This document shows, one piece after another, positions 56,737 through 64,000 of a stretch of 64,000 nt of DNA. How positions within the stretch are numbered: the first letter of the stretch is position 1; each line of letters opens with the position of its first letter. Position numbers and translations under genes: made by a program. Source of the DNA: Streptomyces sp. Q6 (GTDB taxonomy: Bacteria; Actinomycetota; Actinomycetes; Streptomycetales; Streptomycetaceae). Under the pieces are notes generated by a model. That model saw nothing but the letters and a program-made list of their open reading frames with translations. It had not been told where the DNA came from and did no database searches. The stretch spans positions 7,440,001-7,504,000 of the forward strand of contig NZ_CP146022.1 in assembly GCF_036967205.1 (NCBI RefSeq), given 5' to 3'.

Positions 56737-56810
<74 letters not shown>

Positions 56811-56839
56811 CTAGTTCGAGACATCGAACGTCGCAGGTG

Positions 56840-57607: not shown

Positions 57608-57910
57608 ATGCGCATTCTCCTCCTCGGCGGCACCTGGTTCCTCGGAAAGTCGGTTGCTGGCATCGCGCTTGAGCGCGGATGGCAGGTGATTGCCTTCAAC
57701 CGCGGGCGCAGTGGCCGCGGCCTGCCGGGCGTCGACACGGTGCACGGTGACCGCACCTCGGCCGATGACCTGGCGCGCCTAGCCGGCCATGGCTCGTGGG
57801 ATGTGGTGGTCGATACGTCCGCTTCCGACATGGCCCCTCAAGATGTACTCGCCGGTGCCCGTGTACTTGCGCAGCGCGTGGGCCGGTACGTGGTCGTCGG
57901 GAGCTCGCGG
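57608..57910 (+). pseudogene. NAD-dependent epimerase/dehydratase, 5' fragment
   Basis: Starts MRILLLGGTWFLGKSVAGIALERGWQVIAFNRGRSG, a Rossmann nucleotide-sugar epimerase N-terminus, and keeps family character through WDVVVDTSA ... VGRYVVVGSS. After about 57910 the frame becomes the antisense of the next gene and loses resemblance. Only about 100 of the usual 320-350 residues remain, so the gene is broken, apparently by recombination with the Mrr-like gene on the other strand. Confidence 0.75.
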
Positions 57911-58812
57911 CGCCGTGCCCCGGACCGGAGTCGTCCTGCCGCGCCGGACAACTCGGCGGAATCGACACCGTCAGCCCTGGAAACCGGCGTCGTCTCCGAC
58001 GGGGCCTCAGTGACGGCGCTGCGAGCGATCCTGGAGAGCTGGCTCGGTCCGTCCTCGTCGGGCTCGGCGCCCGCGACGATCAGGGCGATGACGCTGTCCT
58101 GCGTGCCTTCGGTGAAGGGTGGGACCGACAGCAGCCCCGCCTCGTCGAGATCGCGTCGAATCCGGGCCACCGTGGCACGGTCGCGACGCTCGGCGCCCCA
58201 TAGTTCGAGGAGCCTGCGCACGGTGAGGGTCACGGGCTCCTGAGTGTCACTGTCGTGATCCCGTGCACGCTCGATGAGAACGCGTCGCCCTGTGAGAGAG
58301 GCTCCGGGTTCACCGTCGTCCGGCCGTCCCGGGTCGTCACTTCCTTCAGCTACCAGGGCGAGTCGCTGCGCCGCGTCGAATCGGCGTAGCTCGAAGACGG
58401 TGAGCAGCGAGCCAAGGGACTGCAGGAGATCCGGGCGGAACGTCTCGCGCGGTACCTCCGTCCTGCTCCAGTCGACGGACCGGATGTGCCGCATCCCGTC
58501 CTCGGTATCGGACCGGTAGGCGTACTCCCCGGTGATGTGGCCGATCGCGTACTGGCCGTTCATCCGGGGCAACACGACGAGGTCGCCGACGGCTATCTTG
58601 TGCCGGAAGCAGAAGAGTTGACTCGTCCAGTTTCGGAGGGTGTAGTCGTTCTCATCCGGGTACGTGGCTTCCACGATGCCGCGAATGTCGGCGCGGTCCA
58701 TGCAGTTGGATAGGTCCGAGTTCCCCGTCCAACCAGCGATGACGAGACCTTGCTGCAGAACTTCACTCTCGCGTTCACCCTGCCGGCCCGCTCTGACCAC
58801 CCATGCACGCAT
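57838..58812 (-). CDS. Mrr-like restriction-system protein, apparently C-terminally truncated
   Basis: 324 residues. The N-terminal domain (about 1-160: AWVVRAGRQGERESEVLQQG ... GDLVVLPRMNGQYAIGHITGEYAYR ... VDWSRTEVPRETF) resembles the N-terminal domain of actinobacterial Mrr-type restriction proteins. A middle segment (about 195-245, LTVRRLLELWGAERRDRATVARIRRDLDEAGL) is helical. No Mrr nuclease motif (D-(Q/E)-x-K type) is seen, and the last 25 residues are antisense of the epimerase fragment, so the catalytic domain seems lost. It is the first restriction-related gene next to the candidate defence system to the right. Confidence 0.6.
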   Translation of the reverse strand: MRAWVVRAGRQGERESEVLQQGLVIAGWTGNSDLSNCMDRADIRGIVEATYPDENDYTLRNWTSQLFCFRHKIAVGDLVVLPRMNGQYAIGHITGEYAYRSDTEDGMRHIRSVDWSRTEVPRETFRPDLLQSLGSLLTVFELRRFDAAQRLALVAEGSDDPGRPDDGEPGASLTGRRVLIERARDHDSDTQEPVTLTVRRLLELWGAERRDRATVARIRRDLDEAGLLSVPPFTEGTQDSVIALIVAGAEPDEDGPSQLSRIARSAVTEAPSETTPVSRADGVDSAELSGAAGRLRSGARRRELPTTTYRPTRCASTRAPASTS

Positions 58813-59081: not shown

Positions 59082-59774
59082 TCAGCGGGCCGATTTCCTC
59101 CCGTATCGCCACTCGAAGCCGAATCCGTAGGCGGTGTCGATCTGTTGCTGGTGAGTGCGGAACAGGTGGGGGGTGAACCACACGACCTCTCGCCGCAGGT
59201 CCAGGGACCTGTCCCCCGGCGTGAGCATGGCGATGGCGCACGCGGTGGCGCCCTTCGGGGAATCATCGAGGCGAATGTGCCACTCGCCGTCCGGGGCGGT
59301 GACCGTGACCACGCCGCGGAGATGGCGGAAGTCAACTGCTCCTTCGTAGACGTACACGTAGACGAGCAGTTTGGAGAACTTATTTCGGTGCTCCAGGCTG
59401 ACTCTCAGGGTCTCGCCGTCGGATGACGATCCAGTGCGGTCGTCCTGGTCGAGGCTGACATAGGGCCACTCGGTGAGTGAACCGAAGGCCTCGCCCAGGG
59501 GCTGTATCGCGGTGCCCCGGCCGTCACGGGTCCGTACCAGGCAACCGAGATCAAGATCCGCGTGGGAAGCCGCCGACCAGTTGAGGTTGACCTGCAGTGC
59601 TCCCCTGCTCGTGATCCGGGCTGCCGGGGTGGACCTGGTCAGCTCCACCGTGCGGCGTGCGGCGACGCCCTCGTTCCGGGGCGTCTCCACCGTGCCCGAC
59701 GCTTCACGTAACCGTGGCCCTGCTGCACCTGCTCCCAGCCGAATGACCCCGCGTTGCCGCCCGTCGCCGCTCAT
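59082..59774 (-). CDS. TerD-domain protein
   Basis: 230 residues. After about 55 variable residues comes a TerD-like beta-sandwich: VNLNWSAASHADLDLGCLVRTRDGRG, then DQDDRTGSSSDGETLRVSLEHRN with the acidic calcium-binding loop, FSKLLVYVYVYEGAVDFRHLRGVVTVTAPDGEWHIRLDD and a terminal YGFGFEWRYGRK. TerD proteins bind Ca2+ and belong to tellurite/stress systems near the membrane. The ATG at 59774 is divergent from the two-TM coiled-coil gene 138 bases away, and the pair probably shares a control region. Confidence 0.8.
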   Translation of the reverse strand: MSGDGRQRGVIRLGAGAAGPRLREASGTVETPRNEGVAARRTVELTRSTPAARITSRGALQVNLNWSAASHADLDLGCLVRTRDGRGTAIQPLGEAFGSLTEWPYVSLDQDDRTGSSSDGETLRVSLEHRNKFSKLLVYVYVYEGAVDFRHLRGVVTVTAPDGEWHIRLDDSPKGATACAIAMLTPGDRSLDLRREVVWFTPHLFRTHQQQIDTAYGFGFEWRYGRKSAR

Positions 59775-59827
59775 GCTCGGCCCCCTGAACTCACGTGAAC
59801 GCCACGCTTACCGATGGGAATGTGGTC

Positions 59828-59833
59828 TATTAT
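59828..59833 (+). promoter_or_regulatory. -10 element of the membrane-sensor/TerY-P operon
   Basis: TATTAT in an A+T-rich pocket (GGTCTATTATTGTG) of the 138-base gap between the divergent TerD and two-TM genes, about 80 bases before the chosen start at 59913. A convincing -35 was not found (CGCTTA or TTACCG nearby). It is a visual call. Confidence 0.4.
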
Positions 59834-59912
59834 TGTGCCCCCAGTGAAAGAGTTGTGAACTTCGCTGATTGTGGAGACAACGGGACGGCGCTCTGCCGGA
59901 CCAGGGCGGGGA

Positions 59913-61319
59913 ATGTCCGTGGGGGGACCTCTCGACAAAAAGGTGACGGCTCGTCACCTCGAAGACCTGGCGCAAGAAGGGGTGTTGGCGCCGTGCGCCG
60001 ATGGCCTGCATGGATTGGCAGACGCTTTCGACTCCGATGAGGAGAGCGCACTCGACTCCTGGGCTGACCTGGACCTGTTACAGCACTTCGCCAGGGCCGA
60101 GTGTGTGGCGGCGGCCGAGCCTGACCAGCAGGCGCGTCGTACGGCCCTGCTCGACGGGGTCCTCGGAGGCCTGGTCTTTCTGCCGCTGTTGTTCACCTGG
60201 ACCGGCCTGGCGAAGGCATCCCTTGCGTACGAGGCGCTCACCGACGCGGACCCGAAGGCGTCCGCCCGGCCCTTCCTCCAATTGTGGCAATCCGGCTTCC
60301 AGGGGAACCTCAGCGGGGTCTTCCGCTTCGGACATGTGGCGATCGCCGGTTCGATCGCGCTCGGAGCACTGCTCGTGCTCACCCTCGTACACAGCTGGTT
60401 GCGCCATGCCGCCGAGCGGCGTGAGGAGGAGGCCCAGGAACGCACCCGCGCGACTCTCGCTCGACTGGTACCCGTCCTCACAAGTGCCCAACTCCTGCTG
60501 AATGCACACAGGTTCGCCTCCCCCCAGCGCTTCGCCGCCGAACTCAACTCGGCGGCCGGCCGGATCCAACGCATGCACACGAAGGCGATTGCTACGCAGG
60601 AACTGCTGGTGCGCGCGGCCGAAACGGTGGGGGAGACCGTGGACCGGGCCGATCGGCGCTTGGAGCAGGCCGACGCGGCCGTGCAGCCGCTGAAGGAACT
60701 TCTCGCGGACATCGAGGCTTCGGTCGCGAACAGTGGCACGACGATCCGTGCCGCCGTACGGGAACTCGACGCGCCGCTCTCGGAGGCCGGTCGTCAGCTC
60801 ACCGACGCGATCAGCGGTCAGCGGAAGTCCATGGACAAGGCCTTTGAGGATCTCCGGACGGCCGGCGACGGCATGCGTGACGCACTCGTCCGCACGACGT
60901 CGAAGCTCGAGGTGGCGATCACGGGCAATGGGGACGGACTGCGTTCCGCCGTCTCCGACGTCGCCCAGCGGATCGAGGACTCCGTGACCGGACTGGCGGC
61001 GACGCAGCGGGAATTCACCACAGGGCTCGAGGTCGTCTCCGACGTCAACGGCCGGTTGATCGTCGAGTTGGGGGAGGCAGCCCAACGGACCGGCGATGCT
61101 GTGGATGCCTCACGAGTAGCCGTCGACGGCATCGCGGCCCGCAATCAGGCGCTGCACGACGCCGCCGAACGATTCACAGCAGCGGCCGAGGCTCTGGAGC
61201 GAGCCGTGCTCGCCGCCAAGCCCGTCCAGACAGGCGTCGAGCGGGACAGGACCCTTCCGGATACGGCATCGAGGCAGGTCGACGACGACTCTCGGGTAGT
61301 GATCGGTCCGGGCCGGTGA
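59913..61319 (+). CDS. Two-TM protein with long coiled-coil tail (MotA/ZorA-like architecture)
   Basis: 468 residues. Cytoplasmic N-terminus (about 1-77), TM1 about 78-98 (LLDGVLGGLVFLPLLFTWTGL), a 40-residue loop with FLQLWQSGFQGNLSG, TM2 about 139-162, then about 280 residues of heptad-rich helix (ERREEEAQERTRATLARL ... LEQADAAVQPLKELLADIEASV ... AAERFTAAAEALERAVLA). This resembles ZorA/MotA-type stator subunits with a long intracellular tail, though the classical MotA/ExbB signature is not obvious, so homology is tentative. It overlaps the next, MotB-like gene by GTGA. ATG 59913 follows GGGCGGGGA; GTG 59871 is an alternative. Confidence 0.75.
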   Translation: MSVGGPLDKKVTARHLEDLAQEGVLAPCADGLHGLADAFDSDEESALDSWADLDLLQHFARAECVAAAEPDQQARRTALLDGVLGGLVFLPLLFTWTGLAKASLAYEALTDADPKASARPFLQLWQSGFQGNLSGVFRFGHVAIAGSIALGALLVLTLVHSWLRHAAERREEEAQERTRATLARLVPVLTSAQLLLNAHRFASPQRFAAELNSAAGRIQRMHTKAIATQELLVRAAETVGETVDRADRRLEQADAAVQPLKELLADIEASVANSGTTIRAAVRELDAPLSEAGRQLTDAISGQRKSMDKAFEDLRTAGDGMRDALVRTTSKLEVAITGNGDGLRSAVSDVAQRIEDSVTGLAATQREFTTGLEVVSDVNGRLIVELGEAAQRTGDAVDASRVAVDGIAARNQALHDAAERFTAAAEALERAVLAAKPVQTGVERDRTLPDTASRQVDDDSRVVIGPGR

Positions 61320-61804
61320 GGCGCGCTCCCCGTAAGCGGTTCAGGTTCAATCCTGTGCACCTGGCCGGTTGGCTCTTCGCGGACATGCTCCTGGTGCTGG
61401 CCCTGGTTTCCATGGGTGACAGGGGCGACCCATTGGCAGTCACGGCGACAGGGCCGACGCCCCAGGCGTCCGCCTCGTCTCCGAAGCCCACCCCGACGCC
61501 AACCGGTCCGCGCTCCGTCGAACGCAAGCCGGTGAAGATGGACGTGACCGCCGCAGGAGCCGACGACGCCGTGGTGACTCAGCTCAGGCAGAAGACGCGG
61601 CGGTACGAGGGACGTACAGCGGCCTTCGTCCTCACCTTCGGCAGTGCCCCGGAGACCGTGGCCGGCCAGGCCTACGCCAATGAGATCAACAAGGCGCTGA
61701 AGGCCGCCCGGCCCGATATGTTCCGCGGCGCGACGACGCGCGACTTCTGGCAGAACGGCCCAGCAGGATCTGCCGCCCTCGAGATCTACTTCTTCACCAG
61801 CTGA
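61316..61804 (+). CDS. One-TM protein with MotB/ZorB-like aspartate helix
   Basis: 162 residues: basic N-terminus (RRAPRKRFRF), one TM helix about 14-33 (LAGWLFADMLLVLALVSMG) with a buried aspartate D23 placed as in MotB/ExbD/ZorB proton-binding helices, a Pro/Thr/Ser linker (about 45-68) and a 95-residue C-terminal domain (FVLTFGSAPETVAGQAYANEINKALKAARPDMF ... SAALEIYFFTS). That domain has the alpha/beta order of a reduced OmpA-like fold without its peptidoglycan-binding residues; this is a guess. The GTG start overlaps the stop of the two-TM gene, as for stator pairs. Probably the second channel subunit. Confidence 0.7.
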   Translation: MRRAPRKRFRFNPVHLAGWLFADMLLVLALVSMGDRGDPLAVTATGPTPQASASSPKPTPTPTGPRSVERKPVKMDVTAAGADDAVVTQLRQKTRRYEGRTAAFVLTFGSAPETVAGQAYANEINKALKAARPDMFRGATTRDFWQNGPAGSAALEIYFFTS

Positions 61805-61840
61805 CGGCCCGACCGGCCCGCTTTCCTACTTGGAGTATCC

Positions 61841-62515
61841 ATGCAGATTCTGCCCTTCTACCTGGTGTGCGACGAGTCCGCGTCCATGTCCGGCGAGGCC
61901 GTGGAGACCATCAATCAGGCGCTGCCCGAACTGCACCAGGAAATCAGCGAGAACCCGACGGTGGCGGACAAAACCCGGTTCGCCCTGATCGGCTTCTCTG
62001 ACAGAGCGGCGGTGCTGCAGCCACTCTCCGACCTGAGCGAGTTGACATCCCTGCCCTCGCTGTCCGCAGGCGGAATGACCTCCTTCACTTCCGCCTTCCG
62101 GGTGCTGCGAGACTCCATCGAGAAGGACGTCACCGCGCTGAAGGCCGAGGGCCACGAGGTCTACCGGCCGGTGGTGTTCTTCCTCTCCGACGGCCTGCCC
62201 ACCGACTTCGACTGGGAGTCCGCCCTGGACGACCTGAAGGACCAGTCGAAGTTCCGCTACGCCCCGAAAATCATCGCGTTCGGTATCAGCGACGCCGACC
62301 CCGCGATCATCGCCCGGGTCGCTAACTTCCGGGCGTTCATGCAGAACAAGGACTCGGTCTCGCCCGCCTCCGCGCTGCGTGAATTCGCCAAGAGCCTGAC
62401 CCGGTCCATCGTCACCTCGGCAACAAGCATGGCGGCCCAGGGGGACAACGGCTTCGACCTCCAAGTGGAGGAGAAGATCCCGGACTTCACCACGCTCTCC
62501 CTCGACAAACTGTGA
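61841..62515 (+). CDS. vWA domain protein (TerY-type)
   Basis: 224 residues, a single von Willebrand A domain with a complete MIDAS: D11-E-S13-A-S15 (DESASMSG), T80 (GGMTSF) and D117 (FFLSDGLPT). The start MQILPFYLVCDESASMSGE matches TerY, the vWA partner of the TerY-P triad (vWA, PP2C, kinase). ATG 61841 follows TTGGAG. The stop overlaps the phosphatase start (GTGA). Likely a metal-dependent scaffold that relays the membrane signal. Confidence 0.9.
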   Translation: MQILPFYLVCDESASMSGEAVETINQALPELHQEISENPTVADKTRFALIGFSDRAAVLQPLSDLSELTSLPSLSAGGMTSFTSAFRVLRDSIEKDVTALKAEGHEVYRPVVFFLSDGLPTDFDWESALDDLKDQSKFRYAPKIIAFGISDADPAIIARVANFRAFMQNKDSVSPASALREFAKSLTRSIVTSATSMAAQGDNGFDLQVEEKIPDFTTLSLDKL

Positions 62516-63591
62516 GCGAGTCGATGTACGGAACGGAGATGTCCGGCCGGGAGTCGCACATGGAGTCGGCGCCAATGCTCCCGGAGCAGGCGAAGGAGAC
62601 CCCTTCGGCGGACCCCGCAGCCGACCTCAAACAGTCCGTCGATATCGGCGGGCCCCGCCACCCGTTCGCCGGTCTTGGGGCGCCCCCGCACACCGGGAAG
62701 CGTCCACCGCGCTACCCGCCGCGCCCACTGCGGACGCCGTCCTTGCACGACGGCGACGAGTTCGCGGCGTTCACTCCTCACGTCCTCCTGGACGGCTGCG
62801 AACAGGGACGCCTCGTGGTGCGTGCCACCTCCATACGAGGTGACTCGCACAACTGGGAGGGCACGTGCCGGCAGGACGCGATGCTGGTCACTCGGATCGG
62901 CCCGCCGGAAGCGGAGATGCTGCTGCTCGCAGTGGCGGACGGGGTCGGATCGGCGGCGTACTCGCACATTGGCTCCTACCGGATGTCCCGGTTGGCGGCC
63001 GTGCACTTGGAGCGTGACGCGACGAGCCTGTTCAGTGCGCTGTGCGCAGGCGACTCCGCGGAGCTCGGGGCTCTCGCGAACAAGGCTGTGGCCAGTGCGG
63101 TTTCCAAACTGCGGTCGATGCGGGAGAGGAAGGCGGACAATGTTGAGCGCGCCTACTTGGACGCCGACTACGCCACCACCCTCCACGTGCTGCTCGTCCC
63201 CACCGACCCCGCCGTGCGGGAACGGGTCCTGTTCGGGGTCGGCGATGGCGGTCTGTTCCTGCATCACGCGGGGCAGTGGCTGTCGGTCGACGCCGCCGAG
63301 CCCCCCGCCGAGGGAGTCCTCGATACCCGGACCGAGGCGCTGCCGCACGCCTACCGCACGGTCAGGACCCGTCTGATCCGGACCGTACCGAGCGACGTCC
63401 TGCTCCTCGGCACCGACGGGATCACCAATCCCCTGACCCAGAAGGACCCCGAGTTCGCGCAACTCCTCGCCGGCGCTTGGTGCCGCGGCGAGATCCCCTC
63501 GATGTCGGACTTCCTGTGGCAGGCGCAGACGCGCGCGATGTCCTACGACGACGATCGGACCGTGATCTGTCTCTGGGAGGAGACGGCATGA
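62512..63591 (+). CDS. PP2C-family serine/threonine phosphatase
   Basis: 359 residues. A disordered Pro-rich N-terminus of about 80 residues precedes a PP2C domain: motif with D122 (CRQDAML), D143-G144 (VADGVGSAAYSHIGSYRMS), FGVGDGGLFLHHAGQW, LLLGTDGITNP and the terminal DDDRTVICLW. These aspartates bind Mn2+/Mg2+. It is the second member of the TerY-P triad and overlaps the kinase start (ATGA), so phosphatase and kinase are made together and probably oppose each other. Confidence 0.93.
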   Translation: MSESMYGTEMSGRESHMESAPMLPEQAKETPSADPAADLKQSVDIGGPRHPFAGLGAPPHTGKRPPRYPPRPLRTPSLHDGDEFAAFTPHVLLDGCEQGRLVVRATSIRGDSHNWEGTCRQDAMLVTRIGPPEAEMLLLAVADGVGSAAYSHIGSYRMSRLAAVHLERDATSLFSALCAGDSAELGALANKAVASAVSKLRSMRERKADNVERAYLDADYATTLHVLLVPTDPAVRERVLFGVGDGGLFLHHAGQWLSVDAAEPPAEGVLDTRTEALPHAYRTVRTRLIRTVPSDVLLLGTDGITNPLTQKDPEFAQLLAGAWCRGEIPSMSDFLWQAQTRAMSYDDDRTVICLWEETA

Positions 63592-64000
63592 CAACCGCGG
63601 ACGGCAGCGACGTCGAACATTCCTCGCTGGCGGTCGGCGGCCGACTGGCCAGCGGGGGCCAGGGAGAGGTGTTCCCCGTCGGCGACGGGGCGCTTCTGTT
63701 CAAGGAGTACAAGAAACCTTCGGAGGTCGACGGGGCCGCGCTCACGGGCCTGGTCGACTTCCGGCAGGCGCTCTCGGCCACCGACCGGGAGCGGCTCGAC
63801 GAGTTGGCCGCGTGGCCGTTGTGCCGGGTCGTGCACGGCGGACGCCCGGTGGGTTTCCTGATGCGGCGCGCGCCGAGCCGGATGACCTGGATGAACTCGG
63901 CCGGAAACAGGAGACTGTTGGAGATGCAGTTTCTGCTCCGAGCCGCGAAGCCAGGCTGGAGGCAGGTCGTCCAGCCACTCCCGGAGCAGCGCAAGGACCT
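63588..64000 (+). CDS. Protein kinase of the TerY-P triad (3' end outside window)
   Basis: The first 137 codons of a kinase-like protein. The glycine loop is GRLASGGQGEVFPV (about 18-31) and the ATP lysine is K39 in LLFKEYKKP. The segment LCRVVHGGRPVGFLMRRAPSRMTW agrees with the STK-HhH kinases that accompany TerY and PP2C. The catalytic loop and any helix-hairpin-helix domain lie beyond the window. The start overlaps the PP2C stop. Confidence 0.82.
   Translation, partial: MTTADGSDVEHSSLAVGGRLASGGQGEVFPVGDGALLFKEYKKPSEVDGAALTGLVDFRQALSATDRERLDELAAWPLCRVVHGGRPVGFLMRRAPSRMTWMNSAGNRRLLEMQFLLRAAKPGWRQVVQPLPEQRKD

Follow-up and report, generated by a model that had tools for sequence, protein, structure and literature searches.

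A conserved operon of Streptomyces and some relatives joins a membrane protein pair of stator-like appearance to a vWA, PP2C and kinase-like protein set

Organization of the locus

Within a 64,000-nucleotide stretch of the 8.95-Mb genome of Streptomyces sp. Q6 (contig NZ_CP146022.1, forward-strand positions 7440001-7504000; hereafter the window), we analysed a run of five genes that encode two putative membrane proteins, a TerY-like vWA protein, a PP2C phosphatase and a probable Ser/Thr-kinase-like protein, together with a divergently oriented Ter gene. The locus occupies positions 59082-64000 of the window and continues for 541 bp beyond its end. A check of open reading frames (ORFs) found all six frames open, one leftward and five rightward, which confirms the order and orientation given in an earlier note on this DNA, made from the sequence alone, where a TerD-domain gene was placed divergent from a five-gene run; the Ter label itself rests on tblastn.

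Specifically, the TerA/TerD-type gene (59082-59774, minus strand, 230 amino acids (aa); best E value 2e-36 against plasmid Ter genes) is separated by an intergenic region (59775-59912) from the plus-strand genes. The first of these (59913-61319) encodes 468 aa when counted from its ATG, with a GTG at 59871 as a possible alternative start, and its product is a predicted two-transmembrane (two-TM), coiled-coil protein that had been called ZorA-like (ORF and AlphaFold2). The second (61316-61804, 162 aa) encodes a predicted one-TM protein that had been called ZorB-like (ORF, AlphaFold2 and Foldseek). These are followed by the vWA gene (61841-62515; Pfam VWA, 7.2e-9), the PP2C gene (62512-63591; Pfam PP2C_2, 8.3e-21) and the kinase-like gene (63588-64541, outside the window past 64000; 317 aa), the last assigned from motif residues and alignment. 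The Pfam matches uphold the vWA and PP2C identities first proposed from the letters, and the gene overlaps noted at three of the four junctions are exact (GTGA at 61316, GTGA at 62512 and ATGA at 63588), the remaining junction, between the one-TM and vWA genes, being a 36-bp gap. The intergenic region holds a single weak sigma-70-like match, on the minus strand at 59859-59832. Gene starts are uncertain, as the gene caller was home-made; it failed to call the vWA and kinase genes that are annotated in locus L109, as well as the genes of L093.

Conservation of the five-gene set

With respect to conservation, relatives of the locus were collected through both membrane proteins. A search with the two-TM protein against 150 genomes of the family gave 16 matches, the window's own included, the sixteenth of which (L039) showed no one-TM gene, and a scan of genome contigs with an alignment of the one-TM protein, whose pattern contained a conserved Asp, gave 54 loci. 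Seven loci were dropped as duplicates, and the 61 with the membrane pair that remained were sorted into classes of our own labelling: class A, in which the pair is followed by a vWA gene (39 loci, own included); class B, in which an FnIII-like protein follows (20); and class C, in which dynamin-like and Hsp70-like genes follow (2). One further locus, from Actinopolymorpha rutila (L093:8781-14203), brings the loci to 62 in total and those of class A to 40; it stands outside our counts on gene order, Ter genes, contexts, clades, residues, post-kinase genes and GAP1.

The five genes stand in identical order in all 37 class A loci that are fully visible, the window's included; contig ends truncate the remaining two (L055 and L067). 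The A. rutila locus, a 38th complete one, has the same five genes and, immediately behind the kinase-like gene, another such gene. Order this constant indicates that the arrangement is not due to chance, and the five-gene set is a conserved unit, which Streptomyces and some relatives have preserved whole. The 37 complete loci fall in 15 gene contexts (loci being assigned to one context if they had two or more flanking gene families in common), pairwise protein distances correlate between all gene pairs (r 0.83-0.94), and the four-base overlap of the PP2C and kinase genes recurs in 36 of the 37. Class A forms a single clade (39/39, support 0.995) and class B another (20/20, support 0.975).

Among the named relatives in the contig scan, those from Streptomyces are the nearest. 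Class A was present in 7 of the 150 family genomes, own included, and the one-TM alignment found two matches among 396 genomes of the phylum, its own and a weak one. Carriage of the operon by viruses or plasmids was considered and rejected, since no relative of the one-TM protein was found among the viral contigs or plasmids searched.

A candidate phospho-switch

In terms of the individual proteins, the vWA protein aligns at 31% with an annotated TerY, and its residues of the metal-ion-dependent adhesion site type (D11, S13, S15, T80 and D117) are conserved in those rows (35-36 of 37) that have no gap there. The PP2C residues Asp122, Asp143, Asp302 and Asp348 are likewise kept in 36-37 of 37 rows, one of which is gapped. 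The kinase protein gave no Pfam match; its Lys39, Asn163 and Asp180 are present in 37/37 rows and Asp158 in 36/37, its G-loop is kept, and it aligns at 24-25% with the kinases of class B, of which that of L031 matches Pkinase at 5.6e-15. These residues and alignments suggest that the third protein of the triad is Ser/Thr-kinase-like.

In the part of PMC11090510 available to us, a TerY-P triad consists of a vWA protein, a PP2C and a kinase, the last with a C-terminal zinc ribbon or OB fold. The present operon encodes proteins of these three kinds, with a TerY-like vWA, and differs from that description in being joined to a two-gene membrane module and in its kinase, which ends at 317 aa; a zinc ribbon, OB fold or HhH extension at the C terminus is absent from the seven class A kinases aligned. 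The earlier designation as a TerY-P triad is supported for all three members, the kinase by motif residues and alignment, but not for the HhH-type kinase that the note named in known triads.

The vWA/PP2C/kinase set also occurs without a recognised membrane pair, on a plasmid of Streptomyces (its kinase being annotated as hypothetical) and in Nonomuraea, which indicates that the set is a module. In the Nonomuraea triad (L111:5082-8011), the PP2C and the kinase each have a hydrophobic stretch. A Rhodococcus opacus plasmid (L110:5016-8296) encodes a DUF4407 protein, a small protein and a related kinase (2.5e-33), followed by GIY-YIG and DUF3883 genes, and is possibly a parallel pairing of membrane protein and kinase.

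The membrane pair

For the one-TM protein, AlphaFold2 (mean predicted local distance difference test score (pLDDT) 84.7) predicts a helix at residues 14-34 that holds Asp23, a proline-rich linker and a beta-alpha-beta-alpha-beta-beta domain at 73-160, with block mean confidence of at least 91 across residues 71-160. The top Foldseek match of this putative outer domain was the peptidoglycan-binding domain of SiiA (6qvp, E 1.2e-3), with OprF second at about 1e-3. The model of the two-TM protein (mean pLDDT 76) contains N-terminal helices, a helix at 90-112 and another from 139, with an RPFLQLWQSGF loop between them, and helices to 439; the helices at 90-112 and from 139 were read as transmembrane by eye. 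The latter is predicted to continue into a long tail (139-439), of low confidence past about 300.

Asp23 is found in 47/47 rows, those from the contig scan having been recovered with a pattern that required it, and also in 15/15 rows recovered through the two-TM subunit, which were thus not selected on the Asp. At Thr95 of the two-TM protein, 53 of the 54 rows have T and the remaining one has S. An invariant transmembrane Asp, a Thr/Ser in the partner helix, a borderline MotB-type outer fold and a long tail make the modelled pair look stator-like in anatomy. According to the accessible text of PMC12505986, two of the helices of MotA line the channel together with the B helix, so that a two-TM version could retain just those two.

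Related arrangements

The class B pair precedes the gene of a ~700-aa protein and lies opposite a block that comprises kinase, PP2C, vWA and GAP1 genes. The kinase was seen in 16 of the 20 loci and the vWA in 15, and the GAP1 of L031 matches Pfam at 3.7e-22. Our FnIII-like label for the ~700-aa protein is taken from the description in the portion of PMC7159879 at hand, Pfam giving no match for three such proteins tested. Class B fits theme three of the GAP1-N2 conflict systems as set out in that portion (Kaur et al. 2020). Class A has in common with those systems the actinobacterial kinase/PP2C/vWA set and, through its sister clade, a membrane pair that lies in GAP1 loci; it differs in that none of its 39 loci gave a GAP1 or FnIII-like match, the DO-GTPase itself not having been searched for. 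The membrane pair is joined, then, to two different kinase/PP2C/vWA sets, with and without the GAP1 module. The text of PMC7159879 contained no TolQ, MotA, ExbB, Zorya, ZorB, TolR, ExbD or MotB. In the two class C loci (L037 and L038), a diverged membrane pair precedes a dynamin-like GTPase (Pfam 2e-7) and a protein that by eye is Hsp70-like, with a gene that looks CHAT/TPR-like divergent nearby; when L037 is followed over a longer stretch (L095), a PP2C match (3.7e-11) appears downstream.

No description of the operon was found in the literature searched, which covered few subscription papers and did not include the Anantharaman 2012 Ter review; this agrees with the earlier note, which knew of no named defence system of this arrangement. 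The text of PMC12839542 gave no match for Zor, TerD, PP2C, TerY or ExbB.

Proposed mechanism

The reading that we place first, at slightly less than even odds (roughly 0.45), is that of a self-contained envelope-to-cytoplasm signalling operon, in which a wall-touching and probably ion-driven sensor controls a Ser/Thr phospho-switch. Two-TM subunits, probably five, would surround a pair of one-TM subunits, whose predicted OmpA/MotB-type outer domains would contact the cell wall. A change in the wall could then lead to ion flow past Asp23 and Thr95, or to some other movement of the assembly, and this movement would be transmitted along the long cytoplasmic helical tail to switch the kinase/PP2C pair, for which the vWA protein may act as scaffold. 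Phosphorylation of cell proteins would be the output, with the TerA-type protein as a possible partner or target where it is present.

A wider formulation, which we offer only tentatively, is that of a 'motor-to-kinase' receptor of monoderms, in which an ion-powered, wall-tethered machine of stator type would do no mechanical work outside and would instead provide the input to a Ser/Thr kinase/phosphatase switch of eukaryotic type, its two-TM subunit belonging to an independent or extremely diverged lineage reused in at least two gene systems. If this were true, 5:2-type motors would also serve as signal inputs in Gram-positive bacteria, it would be at the cell wall that tension or ion flow switches TerY-P phospho-systems, which is testable, and Zorya-like sensing, Ter proteins and GAP1 conflict systems would be joined in one modular logic. 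The operon may represent a new kind of envelope-to-cytoplasm alarm, standing among anti-phage genes in some strains and not in others.

We know of no kinase switch in the SiiA/SiiB motor. The likeness to that motor lies in the best fold match of the outer domain, which is SiiA, and the difference in that SiiA/SiiB, counted among pentamer:dimer motors, is named for type I secretion in the part of PMC12204202 available. With respect to Zorya, the accessible part of PMC11890865 describes a ZorA homologous to MotA/ExbB, a ZorB helix with a conserved Asp ringed by Ser/Thr, a peptidoglycan-binding OmpA-like domain in ZorB, and an adjacent effector gene (ZorC/D, ZorE or another). ZorAB and the present pair have in common a one-TM protein with a buried Asp and an outer domain, here predicted, of wall-binding type, and a partner with a long cytoplasmic helical tail; they differ in that homology is not detectable and in that two TM helices are read here, as against ZorA TM helices 2 and 3 in that source.

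Several results weigh against the signalling model and its stator-like sensor. Pfam gave no stator family for either membrane protein, and a profile link to MotA/MotB was rejected at a probability of <3% against actinobacterial profiles (MotA 0.4%), a comparison that drew on 24 of 27 fetched MotA-type and 25 of 25 MotB-type loci and included no ZorAB profile. When the PDB was searched by sequence, the best 60 of 73 matches of the two-TM alignment all lay in the helical tail, and the one-TM alignment had no match. A Foldseek link for the two-TM model was dismissed as non-significant helical noise (ExbB at ranks 31 and 37, E about 0.9), and for the outer domain other OmpA-like folds came lower down, mixed with unrelated ones, with nothing at E<=0.001. 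The membrane pair also stands without a visible triad in 4 of the 62 loci (L033, L036, L037 and L038); in L033 and L036, both of class B, no kinase or vWA appeared even in six frames, and L082 and L086 are cut. Homologous pairs unlinked to TerY-P, which the earlier note had held to speak against its proposal, are seen in part: the triad accompanies the pair in the 38 complete class A-type loci and is not visible in those four. Finally, the L027 kinase (L027:12504-13469) has Asn at catalytic Asp158 and is possibly inactive.

The ZorA matches of the two-TM protein (PADLOC; NCBIfam, E 0.0045; PDB 8vvn, E 3.4) are confined to the coiled-coil tail. Homology to ZorA through PADLOC was rejected for this reason; the same region of one such model also gave matches in 7 of a set of 100 genomes of actinobacteria, the window's own not being among them. 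ZorC, ZorD and ZorE were without a match, the one-TM, vWA, PP2C and Ter proteins giving nothing in PADLOC, a scan that did not contain the kinase. The match lists for PF01618 and PF13677 held no MotA/ExbB or MotB in this genome or in two others of the genus. Since no search ties the membrane part to ZorAB or MotAB, Zorya membership fails, and a stator-like mode of working would stand on the evidence of residues and models. What survives of the ZorAB-like or MotAB-like pair first proposed is its anatomy (Asp23, Thr95, the tail and a borderline fold), but not its homology.

Genomic context and alternative readings

A possible, if doubtful, alternative is an anti-phage system of Zorya logic, whose membrane pair would sense phage-caused wall damage and whose kinase would be the effector that shuts the cell down by phosphorylation. 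The patchy occurrence of class A is in line with this, as are the surroundings of the window copy, where a candidate defence protein (PDC-S02 by PADLOC; 57838-58812, minus strand, 6e-52) is encoded between a tRNA-Pro (56737-56811) and the operon, and a stretch rich in defence matches (methyltransferase, DpdE, DrmMI-like and DruE/PD-T4-6) lies downstream. Together with eleven near relatives, the window copy makes up a clade whose members lie in 8 contexts. Among 130 flanking proteins (120-1300 aa) of 13 scattered-context loci, of which L064 and L069 fall outside that clade, 131 PADLOC families matched at E<=1e-15; the families overlap, the 25 listed matching 2-3 proteins each, and hence these are not protein counts. 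Against such a role, 14 of the 37 loci, all within a clade of 20, are linked by common flanking genes, and 11 of these gave one PADLOC family in one protein among 128 flanking proteins (taken from 175 in the same size range); nor does any one gene follow the kinase in all 37 loci. The 14 linked loci sit in different common flanks almost without defence genes (11 tested). We therefore regard a defence role as unproven overall, though likely for the window copy and its near relatives and doubtful for the linked loci; the defence system of the earlier note stays an inference, in line with the neighbours of the window copy but not with those of the linked loci.

Those common flanks would suit an alternative that we consider unlikely, a resident operon for cell-wall or development signalling, whose membrane scaffold would be passive and free of ion flow and which would sometimes be swept into islands. 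In two of the linked loci (L060 and L063) the flanks look by eye like sugar-nucleotide dehydrogenase, acyl-CoA dehydrogenase and LCP-type genes, and six other loci (two named Kitasatospora) have another common context and a clade of their own. The want of a common effector gene also agrees with a resident role, and the invariant Asp could be structural; however, the Asp of the one-TM helix and the T/S-only Thr95 of its partner resemble a stator core, and the window's clade has defence neighbours.

For the envelope-to-cytoplasm signalling operon, the absence of a gene common to all 37 loci after the kinase means that the operon looks complete in itself, its output being phosphorylation or something encoded elsewhere. 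The first post-kinase gene is on the same strand in 19/37 loci, and also within 100 bp in 8/37. In this genome, remnants of IS3-type and IS110-type (insertion sequence) transposases, recognised by eye, lie directly past the kinase (64829-66634 in window numbering), and the defence-rich stretch begins beyond them. An unrelated gene set in that place, which the earlier note had held to speak against a composite system, is thus seen in part: remnants stand here, downstream genes vary among loci, and none is universal.

A tellurite or metal resistance locus of Ter type is very improbable, for although TerA/TerD-type and TerY-like proteins are present, tblastn found no Ter gene in 15/39 class A loci, other Ter genes of the genome not having been searched for. 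The window's Ter protein gave no Pfam or NCBIfam match and nothing useful in a PDB sequence search. By tblastn on plasmids, the best 15 of 2609 rows show 34-39% identity over 80-89% of its length, and most of these are annotated TerD family or tellurium resistance, one being named TerA (35.8%). Counting the window's own, 24/39 class A loci hold a relative of it, recognised in three of them by short matches only, so the gene, divergent here, is an optional rather than a fixed part of the system that the earlier note envisaged. Several Ter genes look partial or broken.

At the upstream edge, GC content drops from about 0.73 to 0.65 past the tRNA-Pro; no repeat of the tRNA-Pro region of >=15 bases was found between 57000 and 102400. 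An ORF at 57608-58243 (plus strand) that overlaps the PDC-S02 gene resembles by eye the start of an NAD-dependent epimerase, and is possibly a truncated gene at an island edge. Downstream, positions 91740-98033 in window numbering (L108:9241-15534, minus strand) encode a 2097-aa protein with a PD-T4-6-type kinase N terminus followed by a DruE helicase match, and this kinase-helicase fusion adjoins the DpdE match (1641 bits) and the DrmMI-like match.

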